From a virus, in the IMG/VR virus record IMGVR_UViG_3300044684_000041, positions 1-28,264 of that record: DNA of 28,264 nucleotides; one strand, given 5' to 3'. Below the pieces are notes generated by a model. The model was not told where the DNA came from. It saw only the letters and a program-made list of their open reading frames with translations, and made no database searches. Position numbers and translations under genes: made by a program. Numbering within the stretch: position 1 is the first letter of the stretch; the number at the start of each line of letters is the position of its first letter. Positions 5,824 through 23,565 of the stretch are shown one piece after another.

Positions 5824-6012
5824 ATGGCGGACGCCAAGGTTGTGCTGACCAAGCCCGGAAGCCACGTCGCAATCGCGAAGGGCTATGCCCACGGGCACAT
5901 CATCGAAGTGGGCGAGCCGGTACCGGCGGGCATCCCGGTTACGGACCCGGAAGGTGCCGGTCACTGGATGGCGGAAGCGGGTTCGGCTCCTGCCGCGCCT
6001 GCTGAAGAGTAG
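5824..6012 (+). CDS. Small head-region protein of unknown function
   Basis: A 62-residue protein: MADAKVVLTKPGSHVAIAKG at the start, a GHIIEVGEPVPAGIPV stretch in the middle, and an Ala/Pro/Glu tail. It has a good ribosome-binding site (AAGGGGGA) and begins 12 nt after the cement gene, so it belongs to the head operon. The central hydrophobic/glycine pattern suggests a small beta-barrel, and the tail looks disordered. In this position phages often carry a minor head or head-completion protein, but I see no diagnostic motif. It is the last gene before the hairpin-containing intergenic gap. Confidence 0.7.
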   Translation: MADAKVVLTKPGSHVAIAKGYAHGHIIEVGEPVPAGIPVTDPEGAGHWMAEAGSAPAAPAEE

Positions 6013-19102: not shown

Positions 19103-21229
19103 ATGTCCGTAGTCGCGACCAATTCCTATACGCTGGCCTCGGGCAACGGCGCGACGTCGGTCTTCCCGTTCACCTTCGCCTGCCGCGATCCCTCTCAGGT
19201 TGCGGTCTACGTCAACAACGTCATCCAGCTTTCCGGCTTCTCCGTCAGCCTCAATAGCGGGTTCAACGGCGGCACGGTGTCGTTCACGGCGGCACCCGCA
19301 GCCGGGGCGAACATCATCATCGCCTCCGATCCCTCGTTCATGCAGCCCATCGCGTTCGAGAACGCCGGGCCGTACAATCCAGCGACGGTCGATGACGCGT
19401 TCGACATCGCCGCGATCCGCGCGATCTACCTTGCCGGCCTGCTTGCCCGCGCGCCACTGGTTCCGATCGGAGAGACCATCGGCCCGCTGCCCGACAAGAA
19501 CACGCGTCCGGGCCACTATTATGCGTGGGACGCGGACGGCAACCCGACCGCCGCGACCTCGACCGGAGGCGGGGACACGTCGCTTCGCACGGACCTCGCC
19601 GGGACCGCAGGAGCGTCGCTCGTCGGTTATCCCAACGGGCAGTCGCTACAGAGCGTGATCCGGGCTCCGCAGACAGCCGACGTCAACTACTTCGTCAGAA
19701 CCGATGGCAGCGACCTCAACAGCGGACTCATCAACAGTCCGAGCGGCGCGTTCCTCACCATCCAGAAGGCTATCGACACCGCTTACAACAGCCTCGACTT
19801 CAAGAAGAACAAGGTCATCATCCACGTCGCTGACGGAACCTATTCGCAGCCCGTCAGCCTCATGGGACGGCTGCAGGACGCTCGCGACAGCGCCGCGCAG
19901 CCGTTGCAGATCATCGGCAACGAGACGACGCCGGCCAACGTCGTCATCAACCCATCGACATCCTACGCCGTAGAATCGCAGGACCACGCCTATGTCCTGC
20001 TTGCCGGGCTGACCCTCCAGAACCCGACTGGCATCCTGATGATGGCCGCCAAGTACGGCATGATCGAGCATCGCAACTGCGTCCTCGGAGCGTGCCAGAA
20101 CGAAAAGGTGATGACCTTCCTTCACGGCACCATCAACGCGGTTGGGCCGACGACGGTCTCCGGCAATTGCACCAGCTTCGTCCACGCGACGCAGGATTCG
20201 GTCGTCAGCTTCTCCGGGCAGACAATCACCTTCTCCGGCTCCCCGGTGTTCTCGACCTATCTGTGGGGCATCAACGCAGCGGTGGTCGACGTATCGAGCT
20301 CGACCATCGTCGGCACCGCGACCGGCGGGATCACGGTCCACATCAATGGCGTCCTCAACGTCTCCAGCGTCACCGGAAAATGGACCGGCGGACAGGCTCC
20401 GCTGGTCGAGACTGGCGGCCTCATCATCGCCGAGGACGTTCAGCAGTACCGCACCTTCTACGTCCGCTCGGATGGCGACGATACCAACGACGGGATGCAA
20501 AACAGCGCCGCTCACGCCTTCAGGACGATCTCTGGTGCACTCACGGCAATTGCCAAGCTGCCGTTCGACCCGATCATGTGGAACGCCACCCTGTCGTCCT
20601 CGATCGTCATCCAGCTTTCCGGTCCCAGCCTTCCGGCGACGTTCAACGAGACCGTGAACCTCGTCGATCTCAAATACTCGGGCTGCACGATCATCGGCAG
20701 CGAGACAACTCCCGACAATTTCGTGATCGCCGGGCTCACGGATGGTGTGGTCGCGACCGGCACAAACACCAAGTTCTTCATTCGCGGGGTCAAGATCACC
20801 GCTCCCGGAGGGTGGTGTCTCAAGGCCGAGCAGGGTGCCGAGATCAGTTACGAGAACGTCGACTTCGGAGCCGCGAACCTGGGGCACGTCATGGCCTATC
20901 GCGGCGGCATCTGCATTGCGACCGGACCCTATACGATTACGGGTGCGGCTCCGTACCATATCCGCTCGTACATCGGTGGTGTGCTGGACGTCAGCGGTCA
21001 GTCCGTCACGCTGACGGGGACGCTGGCCTTTTCCTCAGCCTTTGCTTCGGCGGAACTGCTCGGGTGCATCAAGGCGGGCGGATCCGGCGGAAGTTTCAGT
21101 GGCGGCACGATCACCGGAGTGCGTTACAGCGCCGTCACCAACGGCGCTATCGACACGGGCGGCGGCGGCGCGAGCTTCTTCCCCGGGGGAACTGCTGGAT
21201 CGACCGCTACGGGCGGGCAATACACCTGA
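19103..21229 (+). CDS. Tail fibre/tailspike with T7 gp17-like anchor and duplicated beta-helix module
   Basis: A 708-residue receptor-binding protein. Residues 1-125 match the T7 gp17-type tail-attachment domain: NSYTLASGNGATSVFPFTF, VAVYVNNVIQLSGFSV, GGTVSFTAAPAAGANIIIAS, then DDAFDIAAIRAIYLAGL. A short linker (GHYYAWDADGNPTAATSTGG) leads to a right-handed beta-helix body. Two copies of a pectate-lyase-like entry unit are present: residues 196-277 (YFVRTDGSDLNSGLINS to IIGNETTPANVVI) and 453-537 (FYVRSDGDDTNDGMQNS to IIGSETTPDNFVI). The first is followed by helix coils ending near 450, the second by coils and a Gly-rich end. The repeat suggests internal duplication and possibly polysaccharide depolymerase activity; no catalytic residues can be assigned by eye. 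The start lacks a Shine-Dalgarno. Confidence 0.88.
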   Translation: MSVVATNSYTLASGNGATSVFPFTFACRDPSQVAVYVNNVIQLSGFSVSLNSGFNGGTVSFTAAPAAGANIIIASDPSFMQPIAFENAGPYNPATVDDAFDIAAIRAIYLAGLLARAPLVPIGETIGPLPDKNTRPGHYYAWDADGNPTAATSTGGGDTSLRTDLAGTAGASLVGYPNGQSLQSVIRAPQTADVNYFVRTDGSDLNSGLINSPSGAFLTIQKAIDTAYNSLDFKKNKVIIHVADGTYSQPVSLMGRLQDARDSAAQPLQIIGNETTPANVVINPSTSYAVESQDHAYVLLAGLTLQNPTGILMMAAKYGMIEHRNCVLGACQNEKVMTFLHGTINAVGPTTVSGNCTSFVHATQDSVVSFSGQTITFSGSPVFSTYLWGINAAVVDVSSSTIVGTATGGITVHINGVLNVSSVTGKWTGGQAPLVETGGLIIAEDVQQYRTFYVRSDGDDTNDGMQNSAAHAFRTISGALTAIAKLPFDPIMWNATLSSSIVIQLSGPSLPATFNETVNLVDLKYSGCTIIGSETTPDNFVIAGLTDGVVATGTNTKFFIRGVKITAPGGWCLKAEQGAEISYENVDFGAANLGHVMAYRGGICIATGPYTITGAAPYHIRSYIGGVLDVSGQSVTLTGTLAFSSAFASAELLGCIKAGGSGGSFSGGTITGVRYSAVTNGAIDTGGGGASFFPGGTAGSTATGGQYT
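19688..20716 (+). repeat. Internal duplication in the tail fibre gene (two beta-helix entry units)
   Basis: The units encoded at about 19688-19933 and 20459-20713 share YFVR(T/S)DG.D.N.G..NS...AF.TI..A and II G(N/S)ETTP(A/D)N.VI, spaced about 257-260 residues apart. The match is clear in protein and weak in DNA, so the duplication is old. Confidence 0.75.
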
Positions 21230-21414
21230 TGAACGGCGGCGACCTCCTTCAGCTCGGCGCTCAGTTCGGCGCTGCGGGCGTCGTGGTTGCCTACTTCATC
21301 TGGCGGGAATCGAACGACCGCAAGGACCGGCAAGCCGAGACCGACAGCCGGATCAAGCTCGCTACGGCCCTCGAAGCACTCAAGAACTTCATCATGGGCC
21401 GGCACGATGTGTAG
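21229..21414 (+). CDS. Small single-TM protein, holin or holin-like candidate
   Basis: A 61-residue protein starting through TGATG overlap with the fibre stop. Residues 8-25 (QLGAQFGAAGVVVAYFIW) form one hydrophobic helix; the rest (RESNDRKDRQAETDSRIKLA, then LEALKNFIMGRHDV) is charged and helical. A short N-terminal helix followed by a charged cytoplasmic tail is the build of small phage holins of the BhlA/UviB and pinholin-like types, and the gene heads the lysis cassette. Only one transmembrane segment is present, and a second candidate holin lies at 22256. Either may be the pore and the other an antiholin or regulator. No name can be given from sequence alone. Confidence 0.65.
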   Translation: MNGGDLLQLGAQFGAAGVVVAYFIWRESNDRKDRQAETDSRIKLATALEALKNFIMGRHDV

Positions 21415-21592
21415 GCGCGAGGACGTCCGAAGGGCGCAGGACGCGCAAGACGCCGCCGCTGAAGCCCTCGCTCACGCCTGCAAGGGTGTCTGCACAGACG
21501 ACATCGGGAAGGCGCTCCACAAGCTCTACGACAGCACATTGCAAGAGCCAGTCCCCGAGCAATTTTCGCACTTGCTGGACCGGATGAAATGA
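21407..21592 (+). CDS. NepR-like anti-sigma factor (alphaproteobacterial general stress response)
   Basis: A 61-residue protein. The C-terminal half DDIGKALHKLYDSTL, then QEPVPEQFSHLLDRM, follows the NepR core: (I/L)G..L..(I/L)Y(D/Q).(V/T)(V/L).E.(V/I)P(D/E)...(D/S)LL.(K/R)(L/M). In Alphaproteobacteria NepR binds the ECF sigma factor EcfG and keeps the general stress response off until phosphorylated PhyR removes it. The two helices joined at EPVP are the sigma-binding part. The N-terminal half (REDVRRAQDAQDAAAEALAH) is a variable helix with Cys residues. It overlaps the upstream holin-like gene by 8 nt and the endolysin start by 4 nt (ATGA), so it is made with the lysis proteins. A sigma-control or decoy role is inferred; I cannot exclude a lysis protein that merely resembles NepR. 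Confidence 0.72.
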   Translation: MCRREDVRRAQDAQDAAAEALAHACKGVCTDDIGKALHKLYDSTLQEPVPEQFSHLLDRMK

Positions 21593-22023
21593 CACCGTCC
21601 GATGCCTGCTATGCGCTAGTCCGCAATGCCGAAGGTCTGAGGCTCGCTTCCTATCAGGACAGCAAGGGCGTCTGGACCATCGGGTTCGGCCACACGCACG
21701 GCGTCGGACCCGGAATGACATGCACCGCCGATCAGGCGGAAGCCTGGCTCGAACTCGACATGGGCGAAGCGGCGGCGGGCGTGAACCTCCTCGCGACACC
21801 CTGTACGCAGGATCAGTTCGATGCGCTGACCGACTTCGCTTTCAACGAAGGCGTCCATGCGCTCGAAACCTCGCACCTCCTCCAGTACCACCGTGCCGGC
21901 GACTTCCCCGATGCCGCACATGCCTTTTCAAGCTGGGTGTTCTGCGACGGCAGGATACTCCCCGGCCTAGTGAAGCGTCGAGCGGCGGAAGCCCGTCTGT
22001 ATCTCGGCGAGGCGGACACATGA
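21589..22023 (+). CDS. Endolysin, GH24 lysozyme (T4 lysozyme-like muramidase)
   Basis: A 144-residue muramidase that cuts the MurNAc-GlcNAc bond of peptidoglycan at the end of infection. The GH24 triad is present with the expected spacing: Glu15 in RNAEGLRLASY, Asp24 in YQDSKGVWTIGFGHT and Thr30. The second conserved part (TQDQFDALTDFAFNEGVHAL, about residues 82-101) and the C-terminal LPGLVKRRAAEARLYL are typical of P22 gp19/RrrD-like lysozymes. There is no signal peptide or signal-anchor helix, so export must rely on a holin. The ATG overlaps the previous stop as ATGA and the stop overlaps the next ATG the same way. Confidence 0.94.
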   Translation: MTPSDACYALVRNAEGLRLASYQDSKGVWTIGFGHTHGVGPGMTCTADQAEAWLELDMGEAAAGVNLLATPCTQDQFDALTDFAFNEGVHALETSHLLQYHRAGDFPDAAHAFSSWVFCDGRILPGLVKRRAAEARLYLGEADT

Positions 22024-22259
22024 CCGTGACCGAGCGCCGCAGACGCATCGACGCCAACCGCTCGGTCAAGGACATTAGGCCTGGCGATTGCGTGCGCAAG
22101 ATCGGGCATCGCGGCGTCGGATTCGTGGAGGACATGCCCGACGAAAGCAACGCCTGGGTCTCGTGGAAGAGCGGGATTCTCGAACTTCTCCCTCTCGTCA
22201 TGCTCCGCAAGGTCCGCGCTGGCGGTCACAAGTACGACAGCCGCAGGTGGCAGCCGTGA
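22020..22259 (+). CDS. Small SH3-like protein of unknown function in the lysis cassette
   Basis: A 79-residue protein that begins with ATGA overlap on the endolysin stop. After a basic start (MTVTERRRRIDANRSVKD) it reads IRPGDCVRKIGHRGVGFVED, MPDESNAWVSWKSG and LELLPLVMLRKV. The alternation of short strands with GD..RK.G..G and a closing (L/V)P.(V/E)ML..V resembles SH3/KOW-type or Tudor-like barrels. No catalytic residues are visible. It sits between endolysin and holin candidate and is coupled to both, so it is made late; a binding role (cell wall or nucleic acid) cannot be decided. A real gene by overlap pattern; function unknown. Confidence 0.7.
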   Translation: MTVTERRRRIDANRSVKDIRPGDCVRKIGHRGVGFVEDMPDESNAWVSWKSGILELLPLVMLRKVRAGGHKYDSRRWQP

Positions 22260-22507
22260 GCCCCGATACCCGCCGCACCGTCCGCAACTGGCTGCTCGTA
22301 TTCGTCGTGCTGGGGCTTCTGGCGCTGCTCTACTGGGCGACCGAGCTGCTGAGCAAAGACCTGCTCGGCATCCGCGAGATCGCGCGCGGCTGCCTCATCA
22401 TCATCGGCCTGTTCGTAATCGGCGTGATCGCCGAGAACGTTGGACGGGTCTCGGTCGATATTGCCGGGGCCAAGGCGGACGTGGGGGAGGGCAATGGTCA
22501 GACCTAG
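22256..22507 (+). CDS. Two-TM holin candidate
   Basis: An 83-residue protein with GTG start overlapping the previous stop (GTGA). It has two hydrophobic helices, about residues 9-26 (WLLVFVVLGLLALLYWA) and 45-62 (CLIIIGLFVIGVIAEN), joined by a charged loop (TELLSKDLLGIREIARG), with short soluble ends. Two helices with both ends cytoplasmic is the class II holin topology (S21-like). Position two genes after the endolysin and before the spanins supports a holin role. The single-TM protein at 21229 is a competing candidate. The C-terminal tail (DIAGAKADVGEGNGQT) is Gly/Asp rich and overlaps the next start by 14 nt. Confidence 0.68.
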   Translation: MSPDTRRTVRNWLLVFVVLGLLALLYWATELLSKDLLGIREIARGCLIIIGLFVIGVIAENVGRVSVDIAGAKADVGEGNGQT

Positions 22508-22658
22508 CCTGGTTCTCGCCACGCTCCTCCTGCGCTCCGCTGTGCCGCCGCAGGAGCGCGGCGACGTGCCCGTTCATCCGCTGCAACTGTGCGCCCCGAT
22601 TGCCCCAACGGTCCAGGGTCCGACTGTCGACATCGGCGATCCGGTGAACGTGTCGTGA
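22494..22658 (+). CDS. Small protein with hydrophobic N-terminus, lysis region
   Basis: A 54-residue protein starting at an ATG with a strong GGGGGAGG about 4-6 nt upstream, inside the end of the two-TM gene. Residues 5-14 (SLVLATLLLR) are a short hydrophobic stretch, perhaps a weak signal peptide; the rest is Pro/Val rich with one cysteine (Cys31). It lacks a lipobox, so it is not an Rz1 type lipoprotein. The stop overlaps the next start (GTGA). The ribosome-binding site and the coupling on the 3' side support a real gene. Its function is unknown; an envelope peptide is possible. Confidence 0.55.
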   Translation: MVRPSLVLATLLLRSAVPPQERGDVPVHPLQLCAPIAPTVQGPTVDIGDPVNVS

Positions 22659-22957
22659 CCGCGCTGCTTCTACTGGCCGCTTCGACGTGGGGCGTTGGAA
22701 CAGTCAATTACGACGGTTGGCCGCCGCGCCGCTATACGTCGGACAATACCGCTCTGGTCCACTTTGTCGCGCCCGACAAAATCGACGGGGCCTGCGGCGT
22801 CAAGCACGATCCGGTGAACCCGGAAGAGGCGTGCCAGGAAGGGGCGGTAATTGTCCTCCCGAACCCCTGCACCTTTCCAGAGCGGGAGACGTTCGCTCGT
22901 CTCGCCTGTCACGAGCTGGGCCATCGCAACGGCTGGCCTGGGAACCATCCCAAATGA
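22655..22957 (+). CDS. Small secreted zincin-like metallopeptidase in the lysis cassette
   Basis: A 100-residue protein with GTG start overlapping the upstream stop. The N-terminus TALLLLAASTWG looks like a short signal peptide. The body has Cys residues (GACGVKHDPVNPEEAC and NPCTF) that could form disulphides, as expected in the periplasm. Near the end it has ACHELGHRNGWPGNHP: His86, Glu87 and His90 form HExxH, and His98 fits an extended HExxHxxGxxxxH zinc site, close to but longer than the metzincin HExxHxxGxxH. It would cut peptide bonds in the envelope, possibly during lysis; the substrate is unknown. At 100 residues it is very short for a zincin, so substrate specificity or a non-catalytic role is open. 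The stop overlaps the Rz start as ATGA. Confidence 0.7.
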   Translation: MTALLLLAASTWGVGTVNYDGWPPRRYTSDNTALVHFVAPDKIDGACGVKHDPVNPEEACQEGAVIVLPNPCTFPERETFARLACHELGHRNGWPGNHPK

Positions 22958-23565
22958 CGATTGCACTCGAACTCCTCACCGGAGGCTGGAACCTCATTAA
23001 GATGGGGTTTTCGGCGCTGGGCCGGTTCCTCGGATCGCTCAACGCGCAGGGTGTCTGCGGGCTGATCGTTTCGCTGATCCTCGCCTATGTCTCCTTCCAT
23101 CAATGGATGGAGGCGCGGCACTGGCACAAGCAGAGCGACCGCTACGAAGCGCTCTATACGCAGGAGAAGGCCGCGTTCGACAGGACCGTGGCCGCCTACA
23201 AGGACGCCGCCCAAAAGCAGAAAGCCGACGATGACGCGAAGAACCAGCGCACCGTCCTCCAGCAGACGGCGGTATCGCAGGAGAAATCCGATGAACTCGA
23301 AGCCCGCCTTGCTGCTGCTCGCGCTGAGTATGAGCGCCTGCGCGCCGCATATCAAAGCCATTCCGGTAGCCCCGGAAGCTCGGCAGTGCCCGGCCTACCC
23401 GCTCCCGCCGGCGGACTTGATGAAGCCGCCGATAAGGACAGACTTTCTGACGCCCTCACCTGCACCAGCCAATCCATCCAGCTAGAGGAGCTTCAGAAGT
23501 GGGTGTTGGGCCAGCACGCGATTGATCCGAATGCGGCGATTCAACCACTTGCGGGGTCGCGATAG
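22954..23565 (+). CDS. Inner-membrane spanin (Rz-like)
   Basis: A 203-residue protein with one N-terminal transmembrane helix (about residues 33-52: QGVCGLIVSLILAYVSFHQW) followed by a long charged coiled coil (ALYTQEKAAFDRTVAAYKDA, then DELEARLAAARAEYERLRAA) in the periplasm. This is the Rz architecture, which bridges to the outer-membrane Rz1 lipoprotein and fuses the membranes after peptidoglycan is cut. A complete Rz1 gene is embedded in another frame at 23291-23485, a known arrangement that confirms the call. The C-terminal part after residue 130 is Gly/Pro rich and encodes the overlap; it ends NAAIQPLAGSR. That last stretch also contains the first half of promoter-like P4. It is longer than lambda Rz (153). 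Confidence 0.88.
   Translation: MTIALELLTGGWNLIKMGFSALGRFLGSLNAQGVCGLIVSLILAYVSFHQWMEARHWHKQSDRYEALYTQEKAAFDRTVAAYKDAAQKQKADDDAKNQRTVLQQTAVSQEKSDELEARLAAARAEYERLRAAYQSHSGSPGSSAVPGLPAPAGGLDEAADKDRLSDALTCTSQSIQLEELQKWVLGQHAIDPNAAIQPLAGSR
23291..23485 (+). CDS. Outer-membrane spanin lipoprotein (Rz1-like), embedded in Rz gene
   Basis: A 64-residue lipoprotein wholly inside the Rz gene in another frame. MNSKPALLLLALSMSAC is a signal peptide with a lipobox ending at Cys17; the mature part is proline rich (CPAYPLPPADLMKPP), as in Rz1. After lipid modification it would sit in the outer membrane facing the periplasm and pair with the Rz C-terminus. Nested Rz/Rz1 pairs are well documented in phages. 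No obvious Shine-Dalgarno stands out (GGAGAAA about 5-9 nt upstream is the best match). Position, lipobox and Pro content together make this call firm. Confidence 0.9.
   Translation: MNSKPALLLLALSMSACAPHIKAIPVAPEARQCPAYPLPPADLMKPPIRTDFLTPSPAPANPSS
23533..23565 (+). promoter_or_regulatory. Putative late promoter P4 (CGATTCAAC...TAGC) before the adaptor fusion gene
   Basis: GCGGCGATTCAAC (23533-23545), then TAGC with TAG at 23563-23565, 9 nt before the ATG at 23575. The TAG is also the Rz stop codon. GAGGA lies directly against the ATG, too close for a normal Shine-Dalgarno. Same 13-mer and spacing as P1 and P3. Confidence 0.6.

Follow-up and report, generated by a model that had tools for sequence, protein, structure and literature searches.

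The general stress response of Alphaproteobacteria has NepR as its central off-switch, and at this locus a phage appears to carry a copy of NepR inside its lysis cassette. The stretch of DNA analysed, hereafter the window, is a 28,264-bp IMG/VR virus record. The preliminary description took the NepR-like gene to be a phage copy and named sphingomonads as a source of partner proteins for structure prediction. Its phage nature is borne out by BPP-1/epsilon15-like head, tail and internal protein genes, with matches to a head-tail adaptor (PHROG 332), a major head protein (PHROG 212), and tail and internal virion proteins; judged by these genes and by tblastn searches with the capsid, the phage is a BPP-1/epsilon15/phiV10-like podovirus. 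A tRNA-Arg (ACG) gene is found at 5906-6002 amid the structural genes. The host assignment stands at the level of the class: related capsid genes were found on 33 bacterial contigs, every one of them from an alphaproteobacterium (Rhizobium, Pleomorphomonas, Novosphingobium, Croceibacterium, Aminobacter and others), and a sphingomonad in particular is only likely. The EcfG-NepR-PhyR system is present in hosts of this class, and NepR scores above the PF18557 cut-off in 16 of 21 such genomes. Four genomes from Novosphingobium and other Sphingomonadales (G055, G056, G058 and G059) lack a PF18557 match though related genomes have NepR, reflecting either loss, divergence or incompleteness. The nearest viral relatives (G005 and G012) have an 86% identical capsid protein and share the head, tail and internal proteins, and their lysis cassettes differ from that of the window. 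NepR is detectable neither in these two nor in 38 other related records, and the gene is therefore dispensable.

The lysis cassette lies on the + strand, directly downstream of a tail fibre or spike gene (19103..21229; PHROG 1640 tail protein, E 6e-17). Its first gene (21229..21414) encodes a 61-aa protein with one hydrophobic segment and is followed by the NepR-like ORF, also of 61 aa (21407..21592), and by the endolysin, a 144-aa GH24 phage lysozyme (21589..22023; PF00959, E 2.6e-37; PHROG 7, E 1.5e-50). Further downstream are a 79-aa protein with no family match, whose gene overlaps the lysozyme stop codon (22020..22259), an 83-aa hydrophobic membrane protein that is a second holin or lysis candidate (22256..22507; weak PHROG 38456 holin match, E 0.18), a 122-aa zincin-like protein with an HELGH motif (22589..22957) and an Rz-like spanin (22954..23565; PHROG 2466, E 1.4e-5; 53% identity to relative G005). 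The first gene is called a holin candidate on the basis of its size, its single hydrophobic segment, its position and a weak blastp similarity (27% identity, E 2e-6) to a 65-aa gene that viral contig G466 carries in its lysis region; none of the Pfam and PHROGs family profiles names it a holin. The NepR gene begins, at its ATG, within the last 8 nt of this single-TM gene (ATGTGTAG; overlap 21407-21414), and the NepR stop codon overlaps the lysozyme start by 4 nt (ATGA, 21589-21592), which is the overlap-coupled position between holin candidate and endolysin that had been described. No promoter- or terminator-like sites were found between the holin-candidate, NepR and lysozyme genes.

The coordinates and 61-residue product first given for the ORF are exact, and the NepR homology proposed for it was upheld by the profile search suggested as a check. 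In a Pfam scan, PF18557 (NepR) matches residues 31-59 at 31.1 bits, above its curated gathering cut-off of 25.7 (E 1.8e-7, or E 6.1e-9 when the record is searched alone); the only other Pfam match to the ORF is an insignificant one to DUF1287. A control search with PF18557 gave a match in 1 of 14 named genomes, that of Caulobacter. The NCBIfam NepR model matches weakly (18.6 bits), and a PHROGs search with the ORF gave no match. Two solved NepR structures top the phmmer ranking of the PDB at individually insignificant values (2lfw, E 0.08; 3t0y, E 0.16). As placed by the PDB alignment and the profile search, the core (21497..21586; IGKALHKLYDSTLQEPVPEQFSHLLDRM) would consist of helix 1, the EPVP hinge and helix 2; the 61-aa product contains the EPVP motif, and a two-helix layout is predicted for it. 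The NepR reading frame has the highest coding score of the six, with a GC content by codon position of 66/42/76%. AlphaFold2, supplied with the viral alignment, places helices at residues 2-45 and 51-60 on either side of a hinge at 46-50 (mean pLDDT 76, pTM 0.33); a Foldseek search of the PDB with this small two-helix model of modest confidence came back empty, so the structural evidence adds little to the profile match.

Other viral copies were sought by running degenerate DNA motifs for the NepR core through IMG/VR, the matches being checked with PF18557 or a local profile. These scans permit no mismatch and miss variants, so that the number of NepR phages is a lower bound, and the contigs searched are metagenomic and partial; peptide-pattern scans with a single NepR protein or with an alignment gave no matches. 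Four further lysis cassettes were found on five contigs (L209/L213, L212, L180 and L288), each with NepR between a small membrane-protein gene and the endolysin, and with PF18557 scores of 39.5 bits in L209 (40.7 in L213), 34.0 in L212, 38.7 in L180 and 28.8 in L288. Their phages include a podovirus unrelated to that of the window and a lambda-like siphovirus. All confirmed viral NepRs occupy this slot except those of three contigs considered separately below (L175, L185 and L201). In L209 (G489) the order is a 72-aa TM protein, NepR and a GH24 lysozyme, with the NepR start (ATGACTAG) overlapping the stop of the TM gene and the lysozyme start (GTGA) overlapping that of NepR; L213 has a nearly identical lysis region. 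The terminase, portal and head proteins of L209 belong to families other than those of the window phage, and its integrase suggests a temperate phage. L212 (G490) has the same gene order in a related cassette with a different holin candidate and spike. L180 (G466) comes from a siphovirus with a lambda gpJ-like tail protein, and has a four-TM protein, NepR and a GH108 endolysin unrelated to the lysozyme of the window and L209. In L288 the order is a TM protein, NepR, an uncharacterised ORF, an RNase H-like gene and a GH24 lysozyme, NepR being separated from the lysozyme by the two intervening genes (L288:1015-2077). The NepR start codon overlaps the stop of the preceding gene in the window, L209, L212 and L180. 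The phages that have this slot are unrelated in their heads and tails, and their endolysins fall into two families. The preceding holin candidates, assigned in all cassettes from their size, hydrophobicity and position, mostly show no relation to one another. Between the window and L209 the lysozymes are 54% identical and the zincin-like proteins 45% (E 6e-23, L209:4305-4622), and these may be related cassettes that have moved between phage backbones. The zincin-like small protein common to both (HELGH / HEVAH motif), whose Pfam match in the window to MPTase-PolyVal is below the cut-off, is a possible lysis-associated metalloprotease.

The three remaining contigs (G487 and relatives) carry tail genes of contractile-tailed phages and the order endolysin candidate, Rz-like gene, TM/coiled-coil gene, NepR and an EcfG-like sigma factor, the last two lying at L201:1-755 (G487), at L175:11894-12672 and at the 3' end of L185. 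All three end exactly at the sigma stop codon, as trimmed proviruses do. Because of this ending, and because NepR followed by EcfG is the usual host order, the NepR-sigma end may be host DNA; otherwise these phages have both NepR and EcfG. They were left out of the count of lysis cassettes, and the L201 NepR was kept in the viral alignment, whose five rows are the window, L209, L180, L201 and L212. No ECF sigma or PhyR-like gene was found in the window, nor any ECF sigma in the available NepR-phage sequence except in the ambiguous G487, which points to the host's sigma factor as the target.

Compared with 401 sphingomonad genomes, the phage NepR finds matches in 90, at 31-53% identity and nearly all over the core; some of them end at a C-terminal position identical to that of the phage protein. 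A profile built from the viral copies only matched 240 of the 391 sphingomonad genomes searched; among its 30 best matches, 29 lie near an EcfG/PhyR-like gene. At about 100 cellular NepR loci examined, most adjoin an EcfG/PhyR-like gene and none has a lysozyme beside it; no NepR was found beside L209-type lysozymes at 30 loci examined in sphingomonad genomes. The window core is 30-41% identical to the other viral cores and 52% identical to the best cellular one, and viral and sampled cellular cores are at most about 60% identical. These identities fit several independent captures or a very old divergence of the viral NepRs, the 30-residue core being too short for a reliable tree.

Sequence outside this core is not conserved. 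L209 and L212, the only pair close enough for selection to be measured, differ across the 30 core codons by 16.2 synonymous changes over 21 sites and 11.8 nonsynonymous changes over 69 sites (dN 0.195, dS saturated, Fisher p 1.2e-6), a saturation of synonymous change beside few nonsynonymous changes which argues that the core is kept as a protein in this pair. In their C-terminal extension dN/dS is near 0.8, and codon comparison finds no clear constraint there in any frame. An ORF in another frame overlaps the NepR extension at L209:3070-3345 and encodes a hydrophobic stretch that L212 shows too. Six residues (L37, Y41, E47, P50, F53 and L57 in window numbering) are invariant in the five aligned viral copies. 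In the alignment to 2lfw, L37 and Y41 fall on L32 and Y36 of the Sphingomonas melonis NepR, which are needed for full repression and whose replacement by alanine weakens it (PMC6599016).

In its normal role NepR keeps hold of sigma-EcfG until, under stress, phosphorylated PhyR takes it away (PMC12148442). In S. melonis and Methylobacterium extorquens the stress response is lowered by additional NepR homologues, even when these act through PhyR (PMC6599016, PMC4814048). The phage protein is probably a true NepR that serves, in the lysis cassettes where it occurs, as a late extra copy keeping the host stress response off. With overlaps at both ends and no separate promoter-like site, the gene is probably expressed late, together with holin and endolysin, the overlaps being expected to couple their translation. 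The extra NepR would then bind host sigma-EcfG directly, or would bind the antagonist PhyR and thereby free the host's own NepR; by either route the EcfG response would be unable to switch on while membrane and wall are under attack. As extra NepRs lower the response through EcfG or through PhyR, the predicted direction is the same whichever partner is bound. Binding and stress shutdown are predicted here from the conservation of experimentally mapped residues. The benefit would be that a protective host programme is kept from hindering lysis or late transcription; envelope-protective genes might not be induced as the holin acts, and core polymerase might be spared for late transcription. The freeing of core RNA polymerase and the control over lysis timing that were first suggested are more speculative. 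A literature search for effects of the EcfG response on phage infection found no report. This result counts against the explanation, as do the absence of NepR from the 40 related records and from the 30 sphingomonad lysozyme loci, the lack of conservation beyond the core, the empty Foldseek search and the lack of EcfG promoter motif enrichment in the window.

There is an appreciable, though lesser, chance that the phage protein binds PhyR and never sigma-EcfG, sequestering PhyR and thus leaving host NepR on EcfG; this is a sub-case of the preferred explanation, and the outcome is common to both. S. melonis NepR2 and M. extorquens META2p0735 are mainly PhyR binders and appear to act in this way (PMC6599016, PMC4814048), and the viral copies, like some paralogues of this kind, are divergent and stand alone. 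However, the Sinorhizobium protein RsiA2, also a second NepR copy, binds both partners and lowers the response (PMC4814048), most viral copies have F at position 53, like Caulobacter NepR, and no sequence feature excludes EcfG binding. It is unlikely that the NepR fold now serves in lysis regulation, as an antiholin-like partner of the holin encoded just before it, and plays no part in stress. Such a partnership would suit the position of viral NepR, always directly 3' of a small membrane-protein gene and mostly with an overlapping start codon, but the viral NepRs are polar, have no membrane segment and match no lysis family in PHROGs, and the residues they conserve are those that cellular NepR needs for its cytoplasmic partners; a common NepR-holin interface is also improbable given that the holin candidates are mostly unrelated. 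Still less credible is a passenger role, with the gene a fragment captured from the host and now without function: it is accessory and missing from close relatives, as a passenger might be, yet its placement is compact and overlapping, the slot recurs in unrelated phages, and the core is under purifying selection in L209 and L212. Chance similarity or a mispredicted frame can be given almost no weight, for although the matched part is short (30 residues at 31 bits) and the N-terminal half has no match, the curated cut-off is exceeded, none of 40 related viral records matches PF18557, the NepR frame is the best of six by codon use, and the viral-only profile retrieves host NepRs that adjoin EcfG.

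The phage protein and cellular NepR (PF18557) share the L...Y.....E..P..F/M..L pattern of the core, for which a helix-hinge-helix layout is predicted in the phage protein, with L32 and Y36 kept. They differ in setting: the phage gene lies between a holin candidate and an endolysin with no ecfG or phyR nearby, whereas the cellular genes mostly adjoin ecfG or phyR, an adjacency that is usual and not defining for NepR, solitary paralogues being known (PMC4814048). NepR2 and META2p0735, whose overproduction lowers the response (PMC6599016, PMC4814048), are likewise extra NepR homologues; those are host-encoded, EcfG-dependent feedback regulators, whereas the phage gene is part of a lysis operon and EcfG promoter motifs show no enrichment in the window. 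Large Rhizobium and Sinorhizobium phages also encode a part related to the EcfG pathway (phiM9 rpoE), although theirs are sigma factors and not inhibitors, in different gene neighbourhoods. The ECF sigmas of phiM9 (L327:1405-1959) and other large Rhizobium phages share about 31-40% identity with the EcfG-like sigma of L201, and large rhizobial phages may also push the stress pathway in the opposite way. Phage T4 AsiA is an anti-sigma factor that acts early, on the housekeeping sigma-70, and redirects transcription. Like AsiA, the phage NepR is small, phage-encoded and predicted to bind a sigma factor of the host; unlike it, the phage NepR resembles an inhibitor directed at a stress ECF sigma and is expected to act late, and the two are unrelated in sequence, the Pfam scan of the 61-aa ORF showing no similarity to AsiA. 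A tblastn search of 50,697 annotated phage genomes with the window NepR and five other NepR queries gave chance matches only; one in Rhizobium phage RHph_Y1_11 (H38) was rejected as a NepR, lying on the strand opposite the annotated genes. No report of a phage NepR, or of any other phage inhibitor of the EcfG pathway, was found among the papers searched. What appears to be new is not the NepR family itself but its occurrence in phages and its constant place in the lysis cassette.

A recurring unannotated lysis-cassette gene thereby gains a name, and the viral NepRs form a natural divergent set for mapping contacts with EcfG and PhyR. The recurrence of the slot in no fewer than three further kinds of phage suggests that silencing of the stress response just before lysis is common among phages infecting this class. 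A broader proposal, that a captured NepR was placed between holin and endolysin independently in several unrelated alphaproteobacterial phage lineages and that EcfG shut-off is a built-in late step of lysis, seems to us evenly poised between right and wrong. That unrelated phages have NepR in their lysis cassettes implies that the stress response is of consequence when lysis takes place. If the captures were independent and EcfG is shut off late, this would be a previously unreported strategy of host takeover, and would mean that the general stress response of these bacteria counteracts lysis or phage production.
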